36,162 nucleotides of DNA, from assembly GCA_030539055.1 (NCBI GenBank), contig JAUNSV010000006.1, positions 1-36,162 of the forward strand, written 5' to 3'. Below are positions 3,404 to 36,114 of the stretch, piece after piece. The DNA comes from Eubacteriales bacterium (GTDB lineage: Bacteria; Bacillota; Clostridia; Lachnospirales; Lachnospiraceae). Below the pieces are notes generated by a model. The model did no database searches and was not told where the DNA came from. It saw only the letters and a list, made by a program, of their open reading frames with translations. The translations under genes were made by a program, and so were the position numbers. The number at the start of each line of letters is the position of its first letter. Position 1 is the first letter of the stretch.

Positions 3404-6400
3404 TGATATTTTTTCGCTGGGTTTATCTAGCGAGAGTATTAAAAAATATGATAATTTATATATTAATAAAATTACGAAGAAAGAAGATAATAGCACTCTT
3501 TCTGTCTTTTTTTATGCACAAAATTATTATAAAAATGAAGAGTTAAATTTTTTAATAAAAAAAATTAACGAAAAGTATTTTAGAAAAAAAAGAATAATTA
3601 TAAATTACAAAATAAAATATAATATTGAAAATTTTGATTTATTACTATTTTTAGATAATAACAAAGAAGATATAAAACTTGAGTTAAAAAAACAAAATAT
3701 TGTTTTATGCAATATGTATATTGACAGTAAAATTGAAGTACTAAAAAATGACAGTAAATACAATATAGTTTTTACTATACCAAATTTTTTATTATACATA
3801 CAAAAAGAAAATGAATTCATAAATTGTATAAAAGATTATTTTTCATATACTTTTAATATAGAAGTTGAATTAATAATTAATTTTGAATTAAAAGAAGAAA
3901 AAAATATTGATGAATTAAAATTAATCGAAAATCACAACAAAGAGTATGAAAATTTACATAAAAATGATATTAACGCTCATGTGAATCCCGAAAGCGTTGC
4001 TATTAAAAAAAATTATGATAAAAAAATAAATAGACAAAAAAGAAAATATTATAATGATGGAAAAGTAATTTTTGGGAAAGAAATAGATCCCAAATTACAA
4101 ATATATACATTAGATCAATTAGATGTAGAAATAAAAAAAGTTGTAATTAGAGCAACTATTACGGCTTTTAATTTACGCTTTTCTAAAATGGGAAGAAGAA
4201 TTATATCTTTAACACTATCTGATTTAAATGATTCTATATATATGACAATTTTTCCAGATGAAGAAGAGTATAATATTGTATCAAAAAGACTTTGCGTAGG
4301 AAAAGCAATAAAAGTAGAAGCTCAAGCTACGATGTCTGAATTTGATAAAGAGATCACACTTCAATATATTGTAAATATAGAGGAGTGTGATAATGACTTA
4401 ATATTTCCTAAAAAGAAAGATGAAGAAAAAGAAAAAAGAGTCGAATTGCATTTGCACACAAAAATGTCGCAGCAGGATGGTGTAGGAGATATAGAAGAGT
4501 ATATTGATAAAGCAATATCTTATGGGATGCATGCTTTAGCAATTACAGACCATGGGGTGGTACATAGTTTTGCTAAAGCAAGGCACCATTTACAAAAGAG
4601 AATAAAAGAAAATAAAAATTTAAAATTTAAGTTGATATATGGTGTAGAGGGATATTTGGTTGATGATACAATTATTCCAAACACTATTAATAAATCAAAT
4701 TATTTAGAAGAAGAATATGTAGTATTTGATATAGAAACAACAGGATTAAATAAAATAGAAGATAAAATTATAGAAATAGGAGCTTGCCTTTGTAAGAATG
4801 GAAATATTATATCTACTTTTTCTAAATTTGTAAATCCAAAGATTCATATTCCATCAAGAATTACTACTCTTACTTCAATTAGTGATAAAGATGTATTAGA
4901 TGCAAAAACTATTGATTTTGTATTAAAAGATTTTAAAGATTTTGTTGGAGAGAGAACGCTTATTGGTCATAATGTAAAATTTGATATAGGCTTTATAAAA
5001 GAGAAAGGAAAAAAATTAAATATATATTTTGATAATAAAACTATTGATACAATGGAATTACAAAGAGTGTTATTACCAAATTTAAAAAATTCTAAACTAG
5101 ATACTTTATCAAAAGCTTTGAATATAACTAACGAGCATCATCATAGAGCTATAGATGATGCGATTTGCACACAAAAGTGTTATATGAAATTAATGGAAAT
5201 AGATAATCCTAAACCAGATGAATATGAAAAAATAAAAATATCATATATTAAAAAATTACCTAGATATCATATTATTATATTAGCAAAAAACGATATTGGA
5301 AGAGTAAATTTATATAAAATAATTTCTTTATCGCATATAAAATATTTCAAAACAAAACCAAGAATACCAAAATCTCTTCTTAATGAATTTAAAGAGGGAT
5401 TAATAATTGGTTCTGCATGCTCAGAGGGTGAAATATATAAATCAATATTAGAGGGAGAAGACGAAAAAAAATTAGAAGAAATAGCATCATATTATGATTA
5501 TCTTGAAGTTCAACCAATTAATAACAATAAATATTTAATAAGTGAAGATAATTATATTAAATCAATTGATGATCTAATTCAAATAAATAAAAAAATAATT
5601 GATCTAGCAACGAAATTAAATAAACCTTGTGTAGCAACAAGTGATGCACATTTTGTTAATGAAGAGGATCAAATATATAGAGATATATTAATGAGAGCAA
5701 TGTATTTGGATAAAAATAAAAAGGATGACTTAATAAAAAATGAAACAGATAGTGTCAAATTATTTTTAAAAAATACAAAAGAAATGCTTGATTCATTTTC
5801 ATATTTACCTATTGAAAAAGCAAAAGAAATAGTAATAAAAAATACAAATTTAATATGCTCTATGGTAGAAGATATTTCTCCTGTAAGAGATGATAAATGC
5901 CCACCTATTTTAGAAAACTCAGATCAAATTTTAAAAAATAGCTGTTTACAAAATTTAAAATTACAATATGGCGATACAATTCCACCACTAATAGAAGAAA
6001 GATTGAATACAGAGTTAAGATCTATTATTGATAATGGATATTCTGTAATGTATATTGCTGCAAAAAAATTGATTGATGAATCAATTAAAAATGGATACAG
6101 CGTAGGCTCAAGAGGCTCTGTTGGTTCATCATTTGTTGCTACAATGGCAGGGATATCTGAAGTAAACCCTCTCCCCCCACATTATTATTGCAAGAAATGT
6201 CATTTTATTGATTTTGATTCTGATATAGTAAAAGAATATAAAAATGAAACTGGATTTGATTTACCAAATAAAAAATGCCCTATGTGTAATGAAGAATTAT
6301 CTAAGGATGGTTGCAATATTCCATTTGAAACTTTTCTTGGTTTTAATGGTAATAAAGAACCAGATATAGATTTAAATTTTAGTTATGAATATCAATCTTT

Positions 6401-7811
6401 AGCACATAAGCATACAAATGAATTGTTTGGAGAAAAGAATACTTACAAAGCAGGAACAATTTCTACACTCGCAGAGAAGCAAGCTTATGGAATGATAAAA
6501 GGATATTTAGATGATAATAAAATTTCTAAGAAAAAATCACAAATTGATTATATGACAAAGCGATTATCTGGCATAAAAAAAACTACAGGTCAACATCCTG
6601 GTGGGATTATAGTACTTCCAAATGATGAAGAGATATATACATTTTGCCCCATTCAAAACCCAGCAGACAAAGAGGATGATGATGCAAAATACATAACTCA
6701 TTTTGATTATCATGATATAGATTCGAATGTTTTAAAATTAGATATTTTAGGCCATGGTGCACCAAGTATGATAAGGCATTTATATGATTTTACACATATT
6801 AATCCTATGGAAGTGGATTTTTCTTGCAAAGAGGTTTTATCACTTTTTAAAAGCACAAAAGCATTAAATATAGAGCCTAGTGATATCAATGGTGTAACTC
6901 TAGGATTATTGACTATACCAGAATTTGGCACAAGCTTTGCAATGCAAATGGTTATAGAAGCAAAGCCAGAAACAGTATCTGATCTAATAAGACTTGCAGG
7001 TCTAGCCCATGGCACAGATGTATGGAAACATAATGTTGAAGACATTATTAACTCTAATATTGCTACACTAAAAGAAAGCATATGTTGTAGAGATGATATT
7101 ATGATTTATCTTATAGATAAGGGAATAGATCCTCTAAAATCTTTTGAAATAATGGAGAGAATTAGAAAGGGAAAACAATTAAATAAAGATGATGAAGAAT
7201 TAATGCGTTCAAAAAATATACCAGAATGGTATATTACTTGTTGCAACAAAATAAAATATATGTTTCCTAAGGCTCACGCAGCAGCTTATGTAATATCTGC
7301 ACTCAGAATAGCTTATTTTAAAATATTTTTTCCTGTTGAATATTATGCATCATATTTTAGTATTAATATAGAAAATTTTGATTATGATATGCTATGCGTA
7401 GAAAAAAATATTTTATTCGATAAAATAAAAAAATATCATAACAATGAAAATGATGGAAAAGATGCAAAAAGAATAGAAAAAATTTTTAATTTGATGAGTG
7501 CTACACAGGAGATGTTCGCAAGAAATATTGAATTTATGCCAATTGATTTATATAAAGCTAAGGCAGAAAGTTTTGTTATTATAGATAATAAAATAATGCC
7601 ACCCTTTAGAGCTATCCAAGGTCTTGGAGAAACAATAGCAAAGGATATAGAGAAAGAGGCAAAAATAAAAAAATTTGAAAATATAGAAGATTTGCAAGAA
7701 AGAACTCATATTAATAATACTCTGTTGAATAAAATGTCTCAAATGGGGATATTGAGTGGTTTAGCTAATAGAGAAATAGAAAAGCAAATGTCTATTTTTG
7801 ATATAGTGTAG
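3390..7811 (+). CDS. polC: DNA polymerase III alpha subunit, Gram-positive PolC type
   Basis: This is the replicative polymerase with built-in 3'-5' proofreading. Domains run in the PolC order: a divergent N-terminal region (1-240), an OB fold (about 245-330), and a PHP domain starting at VELHLHTKMSQQDGV (about 350) that is interrupted by the exonuclease (EYVVFDIETTGL about 442, LIGHNVKFDIGF, HHHRAIDDA). The PHP domain then resumes, followed by a four-Cys zinc module (CKKC about 933, CPMC about 962) and the catalytic palm (PDIDLNF about 990, HPGGIIVLP, LKLDILGH). Exonuclease Asp/Glu and polymerase Asp residues are present. The protein ends in QMSIFDIV, which matches the C-terminal sliding-clamp-binding motif (QLSLF-like). 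At 1473 residues it is slightly longer than typical. The ATG overlaps the ispG end by 14 nt, with GAGGA upstream. Confidence 0.97.
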   Translation: MKKFNDIFSLGLSSESIKKYDNLYINKITKKEDNSTLSVFFYAQNYYKNEELNFLIKKINEKYFRKKRIIINYKIKYNIENFDLLLFLDNNKEDIKLELKKQNIVLCNMYIDSKIEVLKNDSKYNIVFTIPNFLLYIQKENEFINCIKDYFSYTFNIEVELIINFELKEEKNIDELKLIENHNKEYENLHKNDINAHVNPESVAIKKNYDKKINRQKRKYYNDGKVIFGKEIDPKLQIYTLDQLDVEIKKVVIRATITAFNLRFSKMGRRIISLTLSDLNDSIYMTIFPDEEEYNIVSKRLCVGKAIKVEAQATMSEFDKEITLQYIVNIEECDNDLIFPKKKDEEKEKRVELHLHTKMSQQDGVGDIEEYIDKAISYGMHALAITDHGVVHSFAKARHHLQKRIKENKNLKFKLIYGVEGYLVDDTIIPNTINKSNYLEEEYVVFDIETTGLNKIEDKIIEIGACLCKNGNIISTFSKFVNPKIHIPSRITTLTSISDKDVLDAKTIDFVLKDFKDFVGERTLIGHNVKFDIGFIKEKGKKLNIYFDNKTIDTMELQRVLLPNLKNSKLDTLSKALNITNEHHHRAIDDAICTQKCYMKLMEIDNPKPDEYEKIKISYIKKLPRYHIIILAKNDIGRVNLYKIISLSHIKYFKTKPRIPKSLLNEFKEGLIIGSACSEGEIYKSILEGEDEKKLEEIASYYDYLEVQPINNNKYLISEDNYIKSIDDLIQINKKIIDLATKLNKPCVATSDAHFVNEEDQIYRDILMRAMYLDKNKKDDLIKNETDSVKLFLKNTKEMLDSFSYLPIEKAKEIVIKNTNLICSMVEDISPVRDDKCPPILENSDQILKNSCLQNLKLQYGDTIPPLIEERLNTELRSIIDNGYSVMYIAAKKLIDESIKNGYSVGSRGSVGSSFVATMAGISEVNPLPPHYYCKKCHFIDFDSDIVKEYKNETGFDLPNKKCPMCNEELSKDGCNIPFETFLGFNGNKEPDIDLNFSYEYQSLAHKHTNELFGEKNTYKAGTISTLAEKQAYGMIKGYLDDNKISKKKSQIDYMTKRLSGIKKTTGQHPGGIIVLPNDEEIYTFCPIQNPADKEDDDAKYITHFDYHDIDSNVLKLDILGHGAPSMIRHLYDFTHINPMEVDFSCKEVLSLFKSTKALNIEPSDINGVTLGLLTIPEFGTSFAMQMVIEAKPETVSDLIRLAGLAHGTDVWKHNVEDIINSNIATLKESICCRDDIMIYLIDKGIDPLKSFEIMERIRKGKQLNKDDEELMRSKNIPEWYITCCNKIKYMFPKAHAAAYVISALRIAYFKIFFPVEYYASYFSINIENFDYDMLCVEKNILFDKIKKYHNNENDGKDAKRIEKIFNLMSATQEMFARNIEFMPIDLYKAKAESFVIIDNKIMPPFRAIQGLGETIAKDIEKEAKIKKFENIEDLQERTHINNTLLNKMSQMGILSGLANREIEKQMSIFDIV

Positions 7812-10743: not shown

Positions 10744-11970
10744 ATGGAAGAGAATAAAAAAGAAAATAGGTATATAAAATTAGGAATTACTTTATTTTTA
10801 GTTTTGCTTGCTGTAGTAATTTCTTATTTTATTTTGAGAGATATATCTTCTATAGCCAAATTTATTAATATTATATTAAAATCTTTATCTTCAATCTTTA
10901 TTGGATTCACATTAGCATATATTTTTTCACCATTGTACAATATGATAAGAAATTTTATTATAAAAATATTTAAGAATACAAAATTCAAAACAAAAAAAAT
11001 ATTAACATTTGCTAAAGTCATTTCTACAATAATATGTATATTGCTTGTTCTTATTATAGTATTTGGTTTATTATTGTTAATGATACCAGATTTAGTAAAA
11101 TCAATAAATGATTTAATTAAAAATCTGCCATCATACTCTGCAAATCTTTCTATAGTATTGAATTATTTTCATTTGGAAGAATATGAAAAACAATTTAAAG
11201 AATGGTACAATCTTTTTCAAACAAATATTATTCAATTCATTCTTTCTTTTTCACAAAACTATGGAAAAAGTTTATTAAAGGGAGTATATAGCAGTGTTTC
11301 TTCATTTATTTATATAATAGTAGACTTCTTTGTAGGAATTATAGCAATGATATATTTGCTTAATTCTAAAGAAAAATTATTATCGCAATATAGGAAAATT
11401 GTATTTGCTTTATTATCAAAAAAGAATGCAATAAGTTTTATGAGAGAGTGTAAATATGTGCATAAAATTTTTGGCAGTTTTATTTCAGGGAAGCTTCTAG
11501 ATTCTTTAATTATAGGAATAATGTGCTATATAGGTTTATTAATTTTAAAAACACCATATGCATTAATAGTATCTGTAATCATTGGTATAACAAATGTTAT
11601 TCCATTCTTTGGACCTTTTATAGGAGCAATACCATCTATTATTTTAATAGCTCTTGCAGAACCAATTCAAGGAGTATACTTTGCAATATTTATTTTAATT
11701 TTGCAACAGTTCGATGGCAATATTTTAGGACCATTAATATTAGGAGATAGAACAGGTGTCGCTTCGTTTTATGTATTGGTATCAATTCTTTTGTTTGGTA
11801 CATTGTGGGGTTTTGTAGGAATGTTACTTGCTGTGCCTTTATGGGCGATTATGCAGCATATTATAAATTATTTTTGCAAAAAGGAATTATTAAAAAAGAA
11901 TTTACCTATTGATTCAATTGATTATTCATATGAAAAAGTTGATGAGATGTGTAAAGAAAATATTCAATAA
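10744..11970 (+). CDS. AI-2E family transporter (TqsA/PerM-like permease)
   Basis: The 408-residue membrane protein has the arrangement typical of the AI-2E transporter family. A first helical pair covers residues 8-60. A cytosolic or periplasmic segment (about 100-170) is followed by the C-terminal helical bundle with the family signatures TNVIPFFGPFIGAIPS (about 280-295), LGDRTGVASF and WGFVGMLLAVPLWAI. Members export autoinducer-2 or move ions and small solutes; the substrate here is unknown. I chose the ATG at 10744 because GGAG lies at 10735-10738, whereas an upstream in-frame ATG at 10702 lies inside the 6S RNA. Only about 17 nt separate it from the 6S 3' end. A bidirectional terminator follows the stop codon. 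Confidence 0.88.
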   Translation: MEENKKENRYIKLGITLFLVLLAVVISYFILRDISSIAKFINIILKSLSSIFIGFTLAYIFSPLYNMIRNFIIKIFKNTKFKTKKILTFAKVISTIICILLVLIIVFGLLLLMIPDLVKSINDLIKNLPSYSANLSIVLNYFHLEEYEKQFKEWYNLFQTNIIQFILSFSQNYGKSLLKGVYSSVSSFIYIIVDFFVGIIAMIYLLNSKEKLLSQYRKIVFALLSKKNAISFMRECKYVHKIFGSFISGKLLDSLIIGIMCYIGLLILKTPYALIVSVIIGITNVIPFFGPFIGAIPSIILIALAEPIQGVYFAIFILILQQFDGNILGPLILGDRTGVASFYVLVSILLFGTLWGFVGMLLAVPLWAIMQHIINYFCKKELLKKNLPIDSIDYSYEKVDEMCKENIQ

Positions 11971-11996
11971 AAAAATGGCTATAAGCCATTTTTTAT
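11968..11996. terminator. Bidirectional intrinsic terminator
   Basis: AATGGCT (11974-11980), the 3-nt loop ATA and AGCCATT (11984-11990) form a hairpin flanked by A-rich sequence on one side and T-rich sequence on the other, so it can end transcription from both directions. It sits between the convergent AI-2E transporter and SEC-C genes and contains the stop codon of each at its edges. Confidence 0.85.
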
Positions 11997-12499
11997 TGTC
12001 CTTTACCACAACATTTTTTATACTTCTTACCACTACCGCAAGGGCAAGGGTCATTTGGATATATTTTTTCTTTTTCTCTTTTTATTACAAGTGAACTTTT
12101 CACTTCTTTCATTATTTCATTTCTTCTTTCTTTAGACAGAACTGTGTCCCACTCGCTAAGCTCATATAGCCAATTAGCTTTTGCTTTAATCATATTTGCA
12201 TATAATTTTTCTGGTTCAATTAAAATTTTTACTTTTGAATTTTCTTTTAATTGTGCAACTTTATTGTCTTTTTTTATAGAGTCATTTATTCCCTCTAAAA
12301 AGCCAACAAATGACTCTATATCCATATCATAAAGCGTAGCTAATTCTATCACAGTTCCACTTATTTCTTCTTTAGGATTTGATAAAATTTTTTTATAAAT
12401 ATTTTTTTCTTTTAAAAAATAATTATCCCAAATTTTTTTTGAATTATTATTTTGATTGTATGCTTTCTCGTGCCAATTTTCTAAAATACTTGTTGCCAT
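11993..12499 (-). CDS. SEC-C motif protein
   Basis: The 168-residue soluble protein has a C-terminal SEC-C zinc-binding motif, [17 protein letters not shown] (about residues 147-163), in the exact C-x-C-x8-C-C pattern also found at the end of SecA. The N-terminal 130 residues are helical and charged, with [31 protein letters not shown] recalling small SEC-C proteins of Firmicutes. The zinc module probably mediates protein or ribosome contacts. The specific role is unknown, and no secretion gene is adjacent. The start ATG at 12499 is preceded on the minus strand by GGGAG. It lies downstream of the cold-shock gene's terminator and ends in the terminator shared with the AI-2E transporter. Confidence 0.85.
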
Positions 12500-12520
12500 T
12501 TGATTACTCCCTATGTTATA

Positions 12521-12548
12521 ATAAAACTGCCTCGAATTACCGAGGCAG
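12521..12548 (-). terminator. Intrinsic terminator of the cold-shock gene
   Basis: CTGCCTCG and CGAGGCAG form a perfect 8-bp stem with a 6-nt loop (12527-12548). On the minus strand it is followed by TTTTATT (12526 downward). It lies about 80 nt after the csp stop codon. The intervening 3' UTR can itself fold (AGTGTA at 12572-12577 with TACACT at 12611-12616, and ATAAATCATTTAT at 12588-12600). Confidence 0.9.
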
Positions 12549-12627
12549 AATTGCTTAAATATCTTTCTTAGAGTGTATACTTAATACATAAATCATTTAT
12601 ATAAACAAGGTACACTTTGATTTAATA

Positions 12628-12825
12628 TTAAAGCTTAGCTACATTGATAGCTTGTGGGCCTTTGTCTCCATTTTGAACTTCAAAAGAAACCTTGTCGCCA
12701 TCATTAAGACTTTTGTATCCACCTGATACTATACCAGAGTAGTGAACAAATATGTCTTTGCCTGATTCATCAGAAATGAACCCGTAACCTTTTTGGTTGT
12801 TAAACCACTTAACTGTACCTTCCAT
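12628..12825 (-). CDS. csp: Cold-shock domain protein (CspA family)
   Basis: The 65-residue single-OB-fold protein binds single-stranded RNA and DNA and acts as an RNA chaperone. RNP1 (KGYGFI, residues 13-18) and RNP2 (DIFVHY, about 24-29) are both intact, as is the start MEGTVKWFNNQKGYGF typical of bacterial Csps. The length matches the family. On the minus strand AGGAGG (complement of 12836-12841) precedes the ATG. It has its own promoter (12870-12898), a leader of about 38 nt beginning with a short hairpin, and its own terminator, so it is monocistronic. It is divergent from the Gx transporter gene. Confidence 0.97.
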   Translation of the reverse strand: MEGTVKWFNNQKGYGFISDESGKDIFVHYSGIVSGGYKSLNDGDKVSFEVQNGDKGPQAINVAKL

Positions 12826-32446: not shown

Positions 32447-33306
32447 AATATGATATAGCTTTTCCACATTTAAATATTTATATTGAAGATATAATTAATT
32501 CTTTCGATATAGGTAATTTTACTATCGCATTTTATGGCATTATAATGTCTATAGCAATGATTTTGGGTTTTTTAATAGTACTTCATTTTGCTTCCAAATC
32601 GAAACAAAACACAGATTATTATTATGATTTATTTATTTTTGTAATAATATTTTCTATTATTGGTGCAAGAGCGTATTATGTAATATTTAATTGGGCTTAT
32701 TATTCTACATACCCAAGTCAAATTATTAATCTTAGAGCAGGTGGACTCGCTATTTATGGTGGAATTATTTTTGGAGTTCTTACAACATTTGTGTTTTGCA
32801 AAATAAGAAAAATCTCTTTTATTAAAACTGTAGATACAGCAATTATTGGTGTAGCTTTGGGTCAAGCAATAGGAAGATGGGGTAATTTTTTTAATATGGA
32901 AGCTTTTGGTACATATACAAATAATCCACTAGCTATGCAAATTAGAAAAGATTTAGTAAACAAATATGCTATAACTATAGAGATGCTTTATAACCAAATA
33001 AAAAATGGTGAATATGTTTATGTGCAAATGCACCCAACATTTTTGTATGAATCTATAGCTTGCTTAATTATTTTTGTAATTTTGATGATAGTTTTTAACC
33101 ATAAAAAACATAATGGAGTAGTTTTTGCTACATATATGGTTTTATATGGTATTGCAAGATTTTTTATTGAGGGCTTAAGAACTGATTCATTGTATATTGG
33201 AAGAACAGATAATAGAGTTTCACAAATTTTTTCTATTGTTATTTTTGCTATTGGAATCATCATTCTTGTTTATAATTTATTAATTAAAAGAAAGGAAAAA
33301 ATATGA
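32443..33306 (+). CDS. lgt: Prolipoprotein diacylglyceryl transferase
   Basis: This integral membrane enzyme transfers diacylglyceryl from phosphatidylglycerol to the lipobox cysteine of prolipoproteins. It has about seven membrane segments and the signature GQAIGRWGNFFNMEAFG (about residues 139-155), which contains the essential Arg and Asn. The LRAGGLAIYGGI segment (about 97-108) also matches. It has 287 residues. It overlaps ligA and ychF by 4 nt each. The predicted lipoproteins at 13473-14465 and 25443-26750 would be substrates. Confidence 0.96.
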   Translation: MKYDIAFPHLNIYIEDIINSFDIGNFTIAFYGIIMSIAMILGFLIVLHFASKSKQNTDYYYDLFIFVIIFSIIGARAYYVIFNWAYYSTYPSQIINLRAGGLAIYGGIIFGVLTTFVFCKIRKISFIKTVDTAIIGVALGQAIGRWGNFFNMEAFGTYTNNPLAMQIRKDLVNKYAITIEMLYNQIKNGEYVYVQMHPTFLYESIACLIIFVILMIVFNHKKHNGVVFATYMVLYGIARFFIEGLRTDSLYIGRTDNRVSQIFSIVIFAIGIIILVYNLLIKRKEKI

Positions 33307-34397
33307 AATTAGGAATAGTAGGTTTACCAAATGTAGGCAAATCAACTTTATTTAATTCGCTAACAAAAAAAGGAGCAGAATGTGCTAATTATCCATTTTG
33401 CACAATAGAGCCAAATGTCGGAATTGTTCCTGTGCCAGATAAACGATTAGATGAATTAGCAAAATTATATAATTCAAAAAAAATCACTTATGCTATTATA
33501 GAATTTGTAGATATTGCAGGACTAGTAAAAGGTGCATCAAAAGGTGAGGGTTTAGGAAATCAATTTTTAGCAAACATTAGAGAAACAGATGCAATATTGC
33601 ATGTTGTAAGATGCTTTGATGATAATAATATAATACATGTGGATGGTAGTATAGATCCAATAAGAGATATTGAAGTAATAAATTATGAATTAATATTTTC
33701 AGACTTAGATGTAATCAATAAAAGATTATCAAAGCAAAAAAGAGCTATGATGAATGACAAATTAGCAAAAAAAGAAGTAGACTTGTTAGAAAAATATAAA
33801 GCTCACTTAGAAGCTGGTAATCTTGCTTTAACAATGGAATTAAGTGATGAAGATGATAAAAAAATTATTAGTGAATTAAATTTACTAACAAATAAAAAAA
33901 CAATTTTTGCAATGAATGTATCGGAAGATGATATATCAAATGATTCAAACAATAAATATGTAGAGAAAGTAAAACAATATGCTAAGGATCATAATGCAGA
34001 AGCATTTTCACTTTGTGCTAAAATTGAAGAAGAGATTGCTTCTTTAGATGATAATGAAAAAAATGAATACCTAGATGCTCTAGGTTTAAAAGAATCTGGT
34101 TTAGATAAATTAATTAAAGCTTCATACAAACTTTTGAATCTAATGTCTTTTTTAACAGCAGGAGAAACAGAAACAAGAGCTTGGACAATAAAAATAGGTT
34201 CAAAAGCACCACAAGCTGCAGGGAAAATCCATTCCGATTTTGAAAAAGGGTTTATAAAAGCAGAAGTAATTAACTATCAAGATTTATTAACACAAGGATC
34301 TCTTTCAAAAGCAAAAGAAAAAGGGCTAGTACGAATCGAGGGAAAGGATTACATAGTAAAAGACGGAGATGTAATATTATTCCGTTTCAATAATTAA
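33303..34397 (+). CDS. ychF: Ribosome-binding P-loop ATPase YchF (OLA1 type)
   Basis: The 364-residue Obg-superfamily NTPase has G1 GLPNVGKS (residues 6-13), G3 DIAGLVKGASKGEGLGNQF (about 65-83), and the C-terminal TGS-like domain with TRAWTIKIGSKAPQAAGKIH and FEKGFIKAEVI. YchF prefers ATP over GTP and associates with ribosomes and stress response. It overlaps lgt by 4 nt, and the next gene begins 1 nt after its stop. Confidence 0.95.
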   Translation: MKLGIVGLPNVGKSTLFNSLTKKGAECANYPFCTIEPNVGIVPVPDKRLDELAKLYNSKKITYAIIEFVDIAGLVKGASKGEGLGNQFLANIRETDAILHVVRCFDDNNIIHVDGSIDPIRDIEVINYELIFSDLDVINKRLSKQKRAMMNDKLAKKEVDLLEKYKAHLEAGNLALTMELSDEDDKKIISELNLLTNKKTIFAMNVSEDDISNDSNNKYVEKVKQYAKDHNAEAFSLCAKIEEEIASLDDNEKNEYLDALGLKESGLDKLIKASYKLLNLMSFLTAGETETRAWTIKIGSKAPQAAGKIHSDFEKGFIKAEVINYQDLLTQGSLSKAKEKGLVRIEGKDYIVKDGDVILFRFNN

Positions 34398-34398
34398 T

Positions 34399-36114
34399 AT
34401 GAAAAAGAATAAACTTTCTTTATTATCTTCTATATTTTTGCTTGTTGGTGGAATGATTGGTTCTGCGATTTTTTCTTTGTCGGGAATTACTATTGAAAAA
34501 GCTGGACCTAGTGCCATAATATCTTGGATAATAGCAGCATTTGTTATGTTTTCTTATGCATTAATTTGCTCAGAGTTAGCTGTTAGATTTCCAAAAAGTG
34601 GTGGAGTATTTGTTTTTCCATCTAAAGCATTAGGAAAAAATGAAAAAGAGGGTGAATTTTTTGGATTTATTTCTACTTTTGGTTATATAAATTCAAATTG
34701 TATTGCTATTGCTTTTTCAGCAATTTACATAGGAACTTATTTATCAGTCGCTTTTCCTTCTTTTTCTAATATGCAAATTCCAATAGCAATTGTAGCTATT
34801 CTATTTATTTTATTAATGAATTATATAAAAATAACTTCAAATGGTAAAATAAATGCAATAATGGTTATTTTTTTAATTATTATTTTGGTTACAATAATAT
34901 ATATATCTTTTTCAAGCAATGAATGGAATATAAATTTATTGAAGCCATTTTTTACTCAAGGCACAAATGGTTCCTTTGGATTTATGTCTGCTGTTCCTAC
35001 AGCTATGATAGGATATGGAGCTGTAGTAGCAATTTGCTTTATGGTAGAAGAGATAGAATCACCACGAAAAAATATAATTAAGTCTATAGCAATTTCATTG
35101 ATTATAGTTGCACTCTTATATGCCTTAGTAATTTTTTCAGTTGTAGGATTGATGGATGCGAATACATTAAAAATAAAACATTATACTTATATTCCCTTGT
35201 ATGGAGTTGCATTTGAAATATTCAAAAATAATACTTTCTTACCAAAAATAATATCAATTGCTGCAATTTTAGCCTTGCTTACAACAATGTCTATAACAAT
35301 GCTACTTGGTTCAAGAGCATTGAAAGCAATTGCAGATGCAAAAATATTCCCAAATATTTTATCAAAAGAGAGTAAAAATAATACTCCAATTTTTGCTAGT
35401 ATTGTATTATCAATTGTAGCAATTATTTTATCTTTATTTCCTAATTTTGTAAGCTACATAGTCTCATTTGCTGTTCTTTTTGAAACTATTACAATCACAC
35501 TAAACATTTTCTCATTAATTAAATCAAGAAAGAAAATAGATAAGGGAGAAATAGTACTAAGCGAAAAAGATTTTAGGCTTCCTTTTGGGTTGTTCTTCCC
35601 TATAATAGTATTGATTATTTTAATACTATGCTATATTCCAGATATAATTAGTGGTGGGTGGAAAGTATTTATATTCAGTGCAATTTGGTATACTATTGCT
35701 ATAATTATTTTTAAATTTAGAAAAAAAAATGAAAATTTTAATATAATAATAGAAGGACTAGTAATTCACGGAAGAGGAAAAGGTAAAACAGTAGGTATGC
35801 CTACAGCAAATATAAAATATGATATTAAAGATAAATTGCCTAAAGAGGGAGTTTATGCTACAGAAATTTATATTGATGATGAAAAATTCTTTGGAGCTAC
35901 AAATGTAGGATTAAGACCCTCTGTTGATAAAGATGAAGATATTACAATAGAAACAAATATTATTAATTTTGATAGGGATATATATGATAAGAAAATTAAA
36001 ATTAAATTTTTAGAATTAATAAGAGATGTTACAAAATTTAATTCTATTGAAGAAGTAAAAAAACAAGTAGATAAAGACAAAGAATATATATTATCTAAGT
36101 ATATGAAAGAATAA
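34399..36114 (+). CDS. APC-family permease fused to a C-terminal riboflavin kinase domain
   Basis: The 571-residue protein joins two unrelated parts. Residues 1-440 form a 12-helix amino acid/polyamine/organocation permease, starting with LLVGGMIGSAIFSLSG (the GxxxGSxIF loop of the family) and including FFGFISTFGYI and AVVAICFMVEEIESPRKNI. Residues about 447-571 match the riboflavin kinase fold of RibF: the nucleotide loop GRGKGKTVGMPTANI (about 459-473), GVYATEI, TNVGLRPSVD, and TIETNIINF with the conserved Glu. No separate start codon lies upstream of this domain, and the junction holds nine A residues (35721-35729). The FAD synthetase half of RibF is absent. The amino acid substrate is unknown, and whether the kinase part is active or regulatory is inference. 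Confidence 0.85.
   Translation: MKKNKLSLLSSIFLLVGGMIGSAIFSLSGITIEKAGPSAIISWIIAAFVMFSYALICSELAVRFPKSGGVFVFPSKALGKNEKEGEFFGFISTFGYINSNCIAIAFSAIYIGTYLSVAFPSFSNMQIPIAIVAILFILLMNYIKITSNGKINAIMVIFLIIILVTIIYISFSSNEWNINLLKPFFTQGTNGSFGFMSAVPTAMIGYGAVVAICFMVEEIESPRKNIIKSIAISLIIVALLYALVIFSVVGLMDANTLKIKHYTYIPLYGVAFEIFKNNTFLPKIISIAAILALLTTMSITMLLGSRALKAIADAKIFPNILSKESKNNTPIFASIVLSIVAIILSLFPNFVSYIVSFAVLFETITITLNIFSLIKSRKKIDKGEIVLSEKDFRLPFGLFFPIIVLIILILCYIPDIISGGWKVFIFSAIWYTIAIIIFKFRKKNENFNIIIEGLVIHGRGKGKTVGMPTANIKYDIKDKLPKEGVYATEIYIDDEKFFGATNVGLRPSVDKDEDITIETNIINFDRDIYDKKIKIKFLELIRDVTKFNSIEEVKKQVDKDKEYILSKYMKE

Follow-up and report, generated by a model that had tools for sequence, protein, structure and literature searches.

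The 36,162-nucleotide stretch of DNA analysed here (hereafter the window), from contig JAUNSV010000006.1 of a Lachnospiraceae genome (assembly GCA_030539055.1, hereafter the host genome), contains an open reading frame (ORF) for 571 residues in which an APC-family permease is joined to a riboflavin kinase (RK) domain. The fusion, first proposed in an initial annotation made from the sequence alone, is confirmed as one open frame with matches to both Pfam families: AA_permease_2 covers residues 6-435 (E-value 2.9e-38), nearly the whole permease part, and Flavokinase (PF01687) covers residues 448-563 (E-value 1.6e-34). The FAD synthetase (FADS) half of bifunctional RibF proteins had been reported as missing, and FAD_syn (PF06574) is indeed not among the Pfam matches of the fused protein at E-values up to 1.

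The 12-helix permease described in the initial annotation agrees with a hydropathy scan, which gave 12 hydrophobic segments between residues 12 and 440. From hydropathy and loop charge, 24 lysine and arginine residues were assigned to predicted cytoplasmic loops versus 6 to outer loops; by the positive-inside rule, both ends of the permease would therefore lie inside the cell, and the RK domain should face the cytoplasm. The permease matches solved APC structures by sequence (AdiC and 6f34/5oqt, which we take to be GkApcT), and models of amino acid transporters lead its NCBIfam matches, with every listed one far under its cut-off. In the first transmembrane segment (TM1), the sequence GSA is present in 31 of 31 aligned permease rows, while the TM1 of many APC transporters carries GSG, which has a role there. 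RibF proteins of known structure (3op1, deposited as a macrolide-efflux protein, 1mrz and others) align with the RK domain over its full length. The domain is complete, as the initial annotation had judged, with the motifs named there all present. The P, T and N of its PTAN motif and Glu518, presumably the catalytic base of riboflavin kinases, are unchanged across 27 aligned RK domains.

Table 1. Coordinates of the fused gene, its parts, and the TruB-FADS gene of the same genome. Positions are those of the window, except in the last row (locus L002).
Feature	Position	Strand	Details
Fused ORF, APC permease + RK	34399..36114	+	571 aa, complete, ATG start
Permease part, residues 1-440	34399..35718	+	AA_permease_2 match and hydropathy
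Linker, residues 441-448, RKKNENFN	35719..35742	+	compared with L085 permease tail RKKKNLNF
A9 run at permease/RK junction	35721..35729	+	candidate slippage or sequencing-error site
RK domain, residues 448-563	35740..36087	+	Pfam Flavokinase
PTAN motif of RK, residues 468-471	35800..35811	+	P, T, N invariant in RK alignment
Glu518	35950..35952	+	invariant in RK alignment
TruB-FADS protein of host genome	L002:1150-2598		FAD synthetase + TruB

Relatives of the host permease were sought with an aligned pair of permeases, which returned 35 loci, a single-protein scan having given no match. For counting, 32 loci were used, L116-L118 being set aside (one fragment, two distant); L095 and G391 (L077) are one contig. 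A RibF-like gene adjoins the permease in 26 of the 32 loci. In 24 it lies on the downstream side, and in the other two, L091 and L108, it lies upstream. The relatives were seeded by permease peptides only. According to record titles, the organisms of these loci include Lachnospiraceae, other Clostridia and Spirochaetes. Few bases separate permease and RibF in many loci, and the two genes overlap by 4 bases in L101, L104 and L105 (Sphaerochaeta-type). Six loci have no adjoining RibF, and in three of these (L086, L110, L112) the contig ends about 400 bases or less from the permease. The permease of L115 is split across two frames. In a tree of 39 permease rows (LG+G4, no mixture), the host permease, a row of odd letter make-up, lies within a 19-row RibF-linked clade with 100/99 support. 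Of the 32 genomes searched together with these loci, 19 have two RK matches, 11 have one and 2 have none. For five Spirochaete genomes with the pair (L094, L101, L104, L105, L106), the single RK match is the one in the pair.

The neighbourhood of these pairs resembles a cluster described in a 2026 preprint. According to PMC12934955, Clostridium scindens converts riboflavin to lumichrome without oxygen, and its riboflavin-induced genes finA-K include a RibF (finB), a class I aldolase (finC), an alcohol dehydrogenase (ADH; finD), an aldehyde dehydrogenase (ALDH; finG) and two Grd-type proteins (finHI); Faecalicatena fissicatena has a shorter version, associated with hydroxyethylflavin. We infer that our locus L130 is the fin region of C. 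scindens ATCC 35704. Its gene order (permease, RibF, aldolase, Zn-ADH, SorC, permease, ALDH, Grd-type genes) fits finA to finI; going by this order, finA and finF would be permeases of the clade described here. In L130, the permease immediately upstream of RibF shares 220 of 446 positions (49%) with the host permease, and the RK of that RibF is 51% identical to the host RK. Neighbours of the 26 pairs were counted by tblastn (E-value 1e-10), with the families of representatives taken from Pfam and NCBIfam: a class I aldolase is present in 19, a Zn-ADH in 20, a SorC-type regulator in 14, an ALDH in 9, the Grd-type subunits in 10 and 11, and an Fe-ADH in 10. Several contigs end inside the cluster, so these counts are lower bounds. 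The ALDH is nearest to betaine-aldehyde dehydrogenase and the Grd-type proteins to sarcosine reductase among NCBIfam models, and SECIS_4 was found in 9 of 33 sources scanned (one being the host region itself) and in 4 of 5 further loci.

When the aldolase was used as the seed instead, 398 genomes of the family yielded 10 matches, spread over 8 of them. The permease adjoins RibF in 5 of the 6 loci that contain RibF, and is absent from all 4 loci that have the aldolase and Zn-ADH without RibF. The fin aldolase itself had no match in the host genome at an E-value of 1e-40 (0 first-look candidates), a search that covered this one fin gene.

To examine the type of the kinase, 30 pair-linked RibF proteins (FinB; L091, whose RibF is of the ordinary type, was kept apart) were compared with 56 ordinary RibF proteins, the latter being best-scoring rows and not a random draw. 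Seven signature columns, in which a residue occurs in at least 85% of FinB and at most 20% of ordinary RibF, were obtained. The host RK carries 7 of the 7 signature residues, compared to 4 to 7 in FinB members and 0 to 2 in ordinary RibF (n = 56); with looser cut-offs it carries 8 of 10 and 8 of 12, ordinary RibF reaching at most 3 and 2. Less favourable are the profile score of the host RK (-34), which falls between those of FinB (61 to 181) and ordinary RibF (-182 to -74), and the RK tree, which places the host domain on a long branch, weakly among ordinary RibF and outside the FinB clade. A joint clade of host RK and FinB is not rejected (p-AU 0.397). With some doubt, we regard the host RK as a fast-evolving kinase of the FinB type.

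The half that the fused protein lacks was compared in 31 pair-linked RibF proteins, with L091 included and L133 dropped as a duplicate of L108. Its FMN-binding loop is deleted in 23 of the 31. The ISS motif retains its first Ser in 4 of 31, compared to 52 of 56 ordinary RibF; the HxGH signature is mostly retained. Both the loop and this Ser are kept in all 10 TruB-FADS rows of the host genus. The half missing from the host protein is thus largely decayed among its relatives. Moreover, the permease of L085 ends in RKKKNLNF followed by a stop, which resembles the linker RKKNENFN of the fused protein and places the join near a native permease end and a native RK start. As a separate matter, the decay of the FADS half bears on the published idea of FinB as an FADH2 pyrophosphorylase, and in L101, L104, L105 and L106 the FADS motifs of the pair RibF are degenerate even though it is the sole RK match of the genome.

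A separate bifunctional RibF, which the initial annotation had suggested looking for, was not found in the host genome (1.51 Mb, 99.3% complete). The fused protein is its sole RK (PF01687) match, and its sole FADS match lies on another contig, fused behind TruB. For comparison, 12 other genomes of the genus (G251-G261, G040; completeness 55-98%, four reaching 90% or more) were analysed. None of the 12 has an RK match, even at an E-value of 1, and 11 have FADS fused to TruB (loci L034-L044), with the frame stopping right after FADS in 10 of the 11 (L044 being read from a 431-residue frame) and G261 as the exception. Lumazine synthase has no match in any of the 13 genus genomes, host included. 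A RibU-type ECF S component is present as a strong match in 11 of the 12 congeners. One of these proteins matches the solved RibU 3p5n (E-value 8.7e-21) and the remaining ten show 53-84% identity to that congener protein, hence the name RibU, which NCBIfam did not assign to them. The host S components found (four PF12822 proteins) include no RibU relative, and none matched the solved RibU; G261 has neither a RibU relative nor an RK match. The pattern across the genus is therefore RibU without RK in 11 of 12 congeners, and RK without RibU in the host.

Taking these results together, we consider it probable, on balance, that the fused protein is a one-chain device for riboflavin uptake and trapping that arose from a pair of the FinA-FinB type. 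That riboflavin is the substrate is suggested by the gene neighbourhood and by what the search of the host genome did not find. The APC permease would bring riboflavin into the cell, and the RK domain, tethered to the inner face of the membrane by a linker of ~8 residues, would convert it by phosphorylation to FMN, which should stay inside and so be trapped; the separate TruB-FADS protein would then turn FMN into FAD. The fusion may have originated through a deletion that took out the stop codon of the permease together with the short intergenic gap and the decayed FADS part of FinB, leaving one gene. The initial annotation had offered two roles, and uptake with trapping appears to be the better supported of them, given the pairing with RibF, a neighbourhood that is often of the riboflavin-induced fin type, and the absence of matches to lumazine synthase and of a RibU relative in the host.

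The closest counterpart of the fused protein is the fin pair of C. scindens, in which the permease lies directly before the RibF-like FinB and both resemble the host domains; there, however, the genes are separate, FinB has a FADS-like half, and the pair is followed by genes for aldolase, ADH, ALDH and Grd-type proteins. Bifunctional RibF shares the RK domain (3op1, 1mrz), and has FADS where the host protein has the permease. The APC amino acid transporters belong to the same family by sequence; the host protein differs from them in its C-terminal enzyme domain, in GSA for GSG in TM1, and in reaching the cut-off of no listed NCBIfam model. ECF-RibU likewise serves flavin uptake in auxotrophs, and is unrelated in family to the host APC permease. 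The PnuC transporter and NadR kinase, a carrier with a cytoplasmic kinase in which uptake is coupled to trapping by phosphorylation, are alike in principle, although the families and the vitamin differ. No description of an APC permease-kinase fusion was found in the open-access literature.

Several observations speak against riboflavin uptake and trapping. Two of the four host S components (L161, L162) pass the cut-off of PF07155, 'ECF-type riboflavin transporter, S component' (52.1 and 32.9 bits versus 26.7), which makes an alternative ECF flavin importer possible. The first of them scores 34 with the NCBIfam riboflavin model (cut-off 99) and 52 with the folate-family model (cut-off 60), and the second gives no match with the NCBIfam riboflavin model. 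The permeases of L090, L092 and L111 have room downstream and no adjoining RibF, and L132, a fin-type locus with RibF, has no permease within 18 kb. No FMN riboswitch over cut-off was found in the 13 genus genomes. In C. scindens, the importers named in PMC12934955 are RibU1/2, so the fin permeases could carry another compound. Finally, the fusion is known from one genome only: a second one of the same order was not found in the 35 related loci, nor among the matches listed for 391 genomes of the class.

These observations lend themselves to other explanations. The fusion could be accidental, with the permease carrying an amino acid or other solute, flavin entering otherwise (for example through a PF07155-type S component) and RK only riding along. 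The amino acid transporter models among the best NCBIfam matches, the two PF07155 proteins and the single fused genome fit this account, which we nevertheless regard as unlikely: 26 of 32 loci, spread across phyla, share the pairing with RibF, the permease survives in a reduced genome that has neither a fin aldolase match nor a RibU relative, and TM1 reads GSA in every aligned row, in contrast to the GSG of many APC transporters. We give less credence to a fin-type permease that exports lumichrome or imports some other pathway compound, a role that would have been kept here with RK merely supplying FMN. L130 does have two permeases of the clade, one beside RibF (5172-6524) and one beside ALDH (11350-12696), whose different neighbours suggest that their roles may differ, and RibU is the named importer in the same organism. 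Production of lumichrome by the aldolase route is nevertheless improbable in the host, which has no fin aldolase match, and with no lumazine synthase match the host would need flavin from outside.

That the A9 run was misread in sequencing or assembly, which would make the fusion two genes in reality, is very improbable in our view. The run, one of 33 A or T runs of at least 8 bases in the window, sits at the junction, and the parts are two genes in relatives. Insertion or removal of one base in silico, however, ends the permease at the run; the RK frame then meets a stop 12 or 6 codons upstream, and none of the start codons ATG, GTG and TTG is available to it. The fused frame is thus the only one of the three that allows translation of RK, and an error here would make the genome's only RK found untranslatable. 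In addition, the FADS part that precedes RK in pair-linked RibF is gone. The initial annotation had held that homologues always encoded separately would tell against the fusion, and none of the 35 related loci is fused; because the partner in relatives is a FADS-RK gene, a deletion fusion accounts for this. Most remote of all is the annotation's other proposed role, in which RK would act as a sensor of FMN or riboflavin that gates amino acid transport by the permease. Some transporters are gated by cytoplasmic domains, yet we found nothing in support of such gating here, and an RK in which PTAN and the conserved Glu are both retained, and which has no second match in its genome, is expected to be an enzyme.

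We put forward a wider proposal tentatively: that these APC permeases are an unrecognised class of riboflavin transporter working with RK, that the pair feeds fin catabolism, and that the host species regained both as one gene in an RK-less genus that imports FMN via RibU. PMC4418817 does not describe any of the bacterial riboflavin transporters that it lists (RibU, RibM, RibN, RfuABCD, RibXY, RibZ, RibV, ImpX, RfnT) as an APC permease. The fusion would serve as a 'Rosetta stone' clue, giving a likely function to a permease that many anaerobes encode next to RibF. It also suggests which protein might import riboflavin for the recently reported gene neighbourhood by which gut Lachnospiraceae degrade the vitamin without oxygen.

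From the enzyme families, a route for fin degradation may be drawn. The FinB kinase would make FMN, the Zn-ADH would oxidise the ribityl 4'-hydroxyl, and the aldolase would cleave the keto-FMN in a retro-aldol reaction to dihydroxyacetone phosphate and formylmethylflavin. In one branch, formylmethylflavin would be reduced by the Fe-ADH to hydroxyethylflavin; in the other, it would be oxidised by the ALDH to carboxymethylflavin, from which reductive N-C cleavage by the Grd-type selenoenzyme would release lumichrome and acetyl phosphate. This putative route differs from the discussion in PMC12934955, which considers overflow metabolism and a role of FinB as FADH2 pyrophosphorylase, and in the main text of which 'permease', 'dihydroxyacetone', 'acetyl' and 'phosphorylat' have 0 occurrences. 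An open-access literature search on riboflavin catabolism in gut bacteria yielded that preprint alone, and the open-access papers on the flavin products, among the matches listed, mostly concern photolysis by title. In a 2022 paper (PMC8877437), hydroxyethylflavin in gut samples correlates with Sutterella, and the predicted cluster differs, comprising a ribonucleoside hydrolase and a ribokinase.

The RK-less congeners are of interest in their own right. According to PMC9973259, RibU of Listeria is required for growth on FMN or FAD and dispensable on riboflavin, which makes FMN uptake by the congeners plausible; those without RK are plausibly predicted to depend on imported FMN. A genus in which no RK is found, and which has FADS and RibU, makes this dependence directly testable. 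Across the genus, the transporter analysis covered the RibU type; G261 is known to have a PF07155 protein (L163) that is similar to the first host one and over the cut-off, and does not reach the NCBIfam riboflavin cut-off.

The TruB-FADS proteins of the host and of G261 (L043) have tails of 80-100 residues, about 80 in the host, with a weak RK profile match (i-Evalue 0.0066 in the host, 0.0025 in G261) and no PTAN; both are perhaps relics of RK. In other genera of the same family, G039, G135, G136, G212 and G229 (92-100% complete) are without any RK match, and G179 (L081) encodes a 558-residue triple fusion of TruB, FADS and RK. This frame was considered as a second permease fusion and rejected on account of its composition; it may represent an older stage of the TruB-FADS fusion.

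Three of the permeases without an adjoining RibF (L090, L092, L110) come from genomes of 1.4-1.5 Mb, one labelled a Methanosarcinaceae archaeon and one Dehalococcoidales, labels which may reflect binning. Among the 33 sources that were also scanned for SECIS_4, an FMN riboswitch was found once (L094:10428-10582, 91.6 bits), downstream of the permease-RibF-FeADH cluster of a Spirochaetales bin. With one riboswitch there and none in the genus, riboswitch control is no general feature of these loci.

Matches of the fused gene to plasmid and phage records were partial, with 0 covering 80%, and viral contigs gave no match. A promoter scan did not exceed shuffled sequence (30 versus 33.0). The fused gene is internal to a contig of 74,448 bases, away from its ends. 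It begins 1 base past the stop of the preceding ORF (33303-34397), and the next ORF of the contig begins at 36226, beyond the window; from a reading of these ORFs, the flanking genes are putatively YchF-like and Mfd-like.

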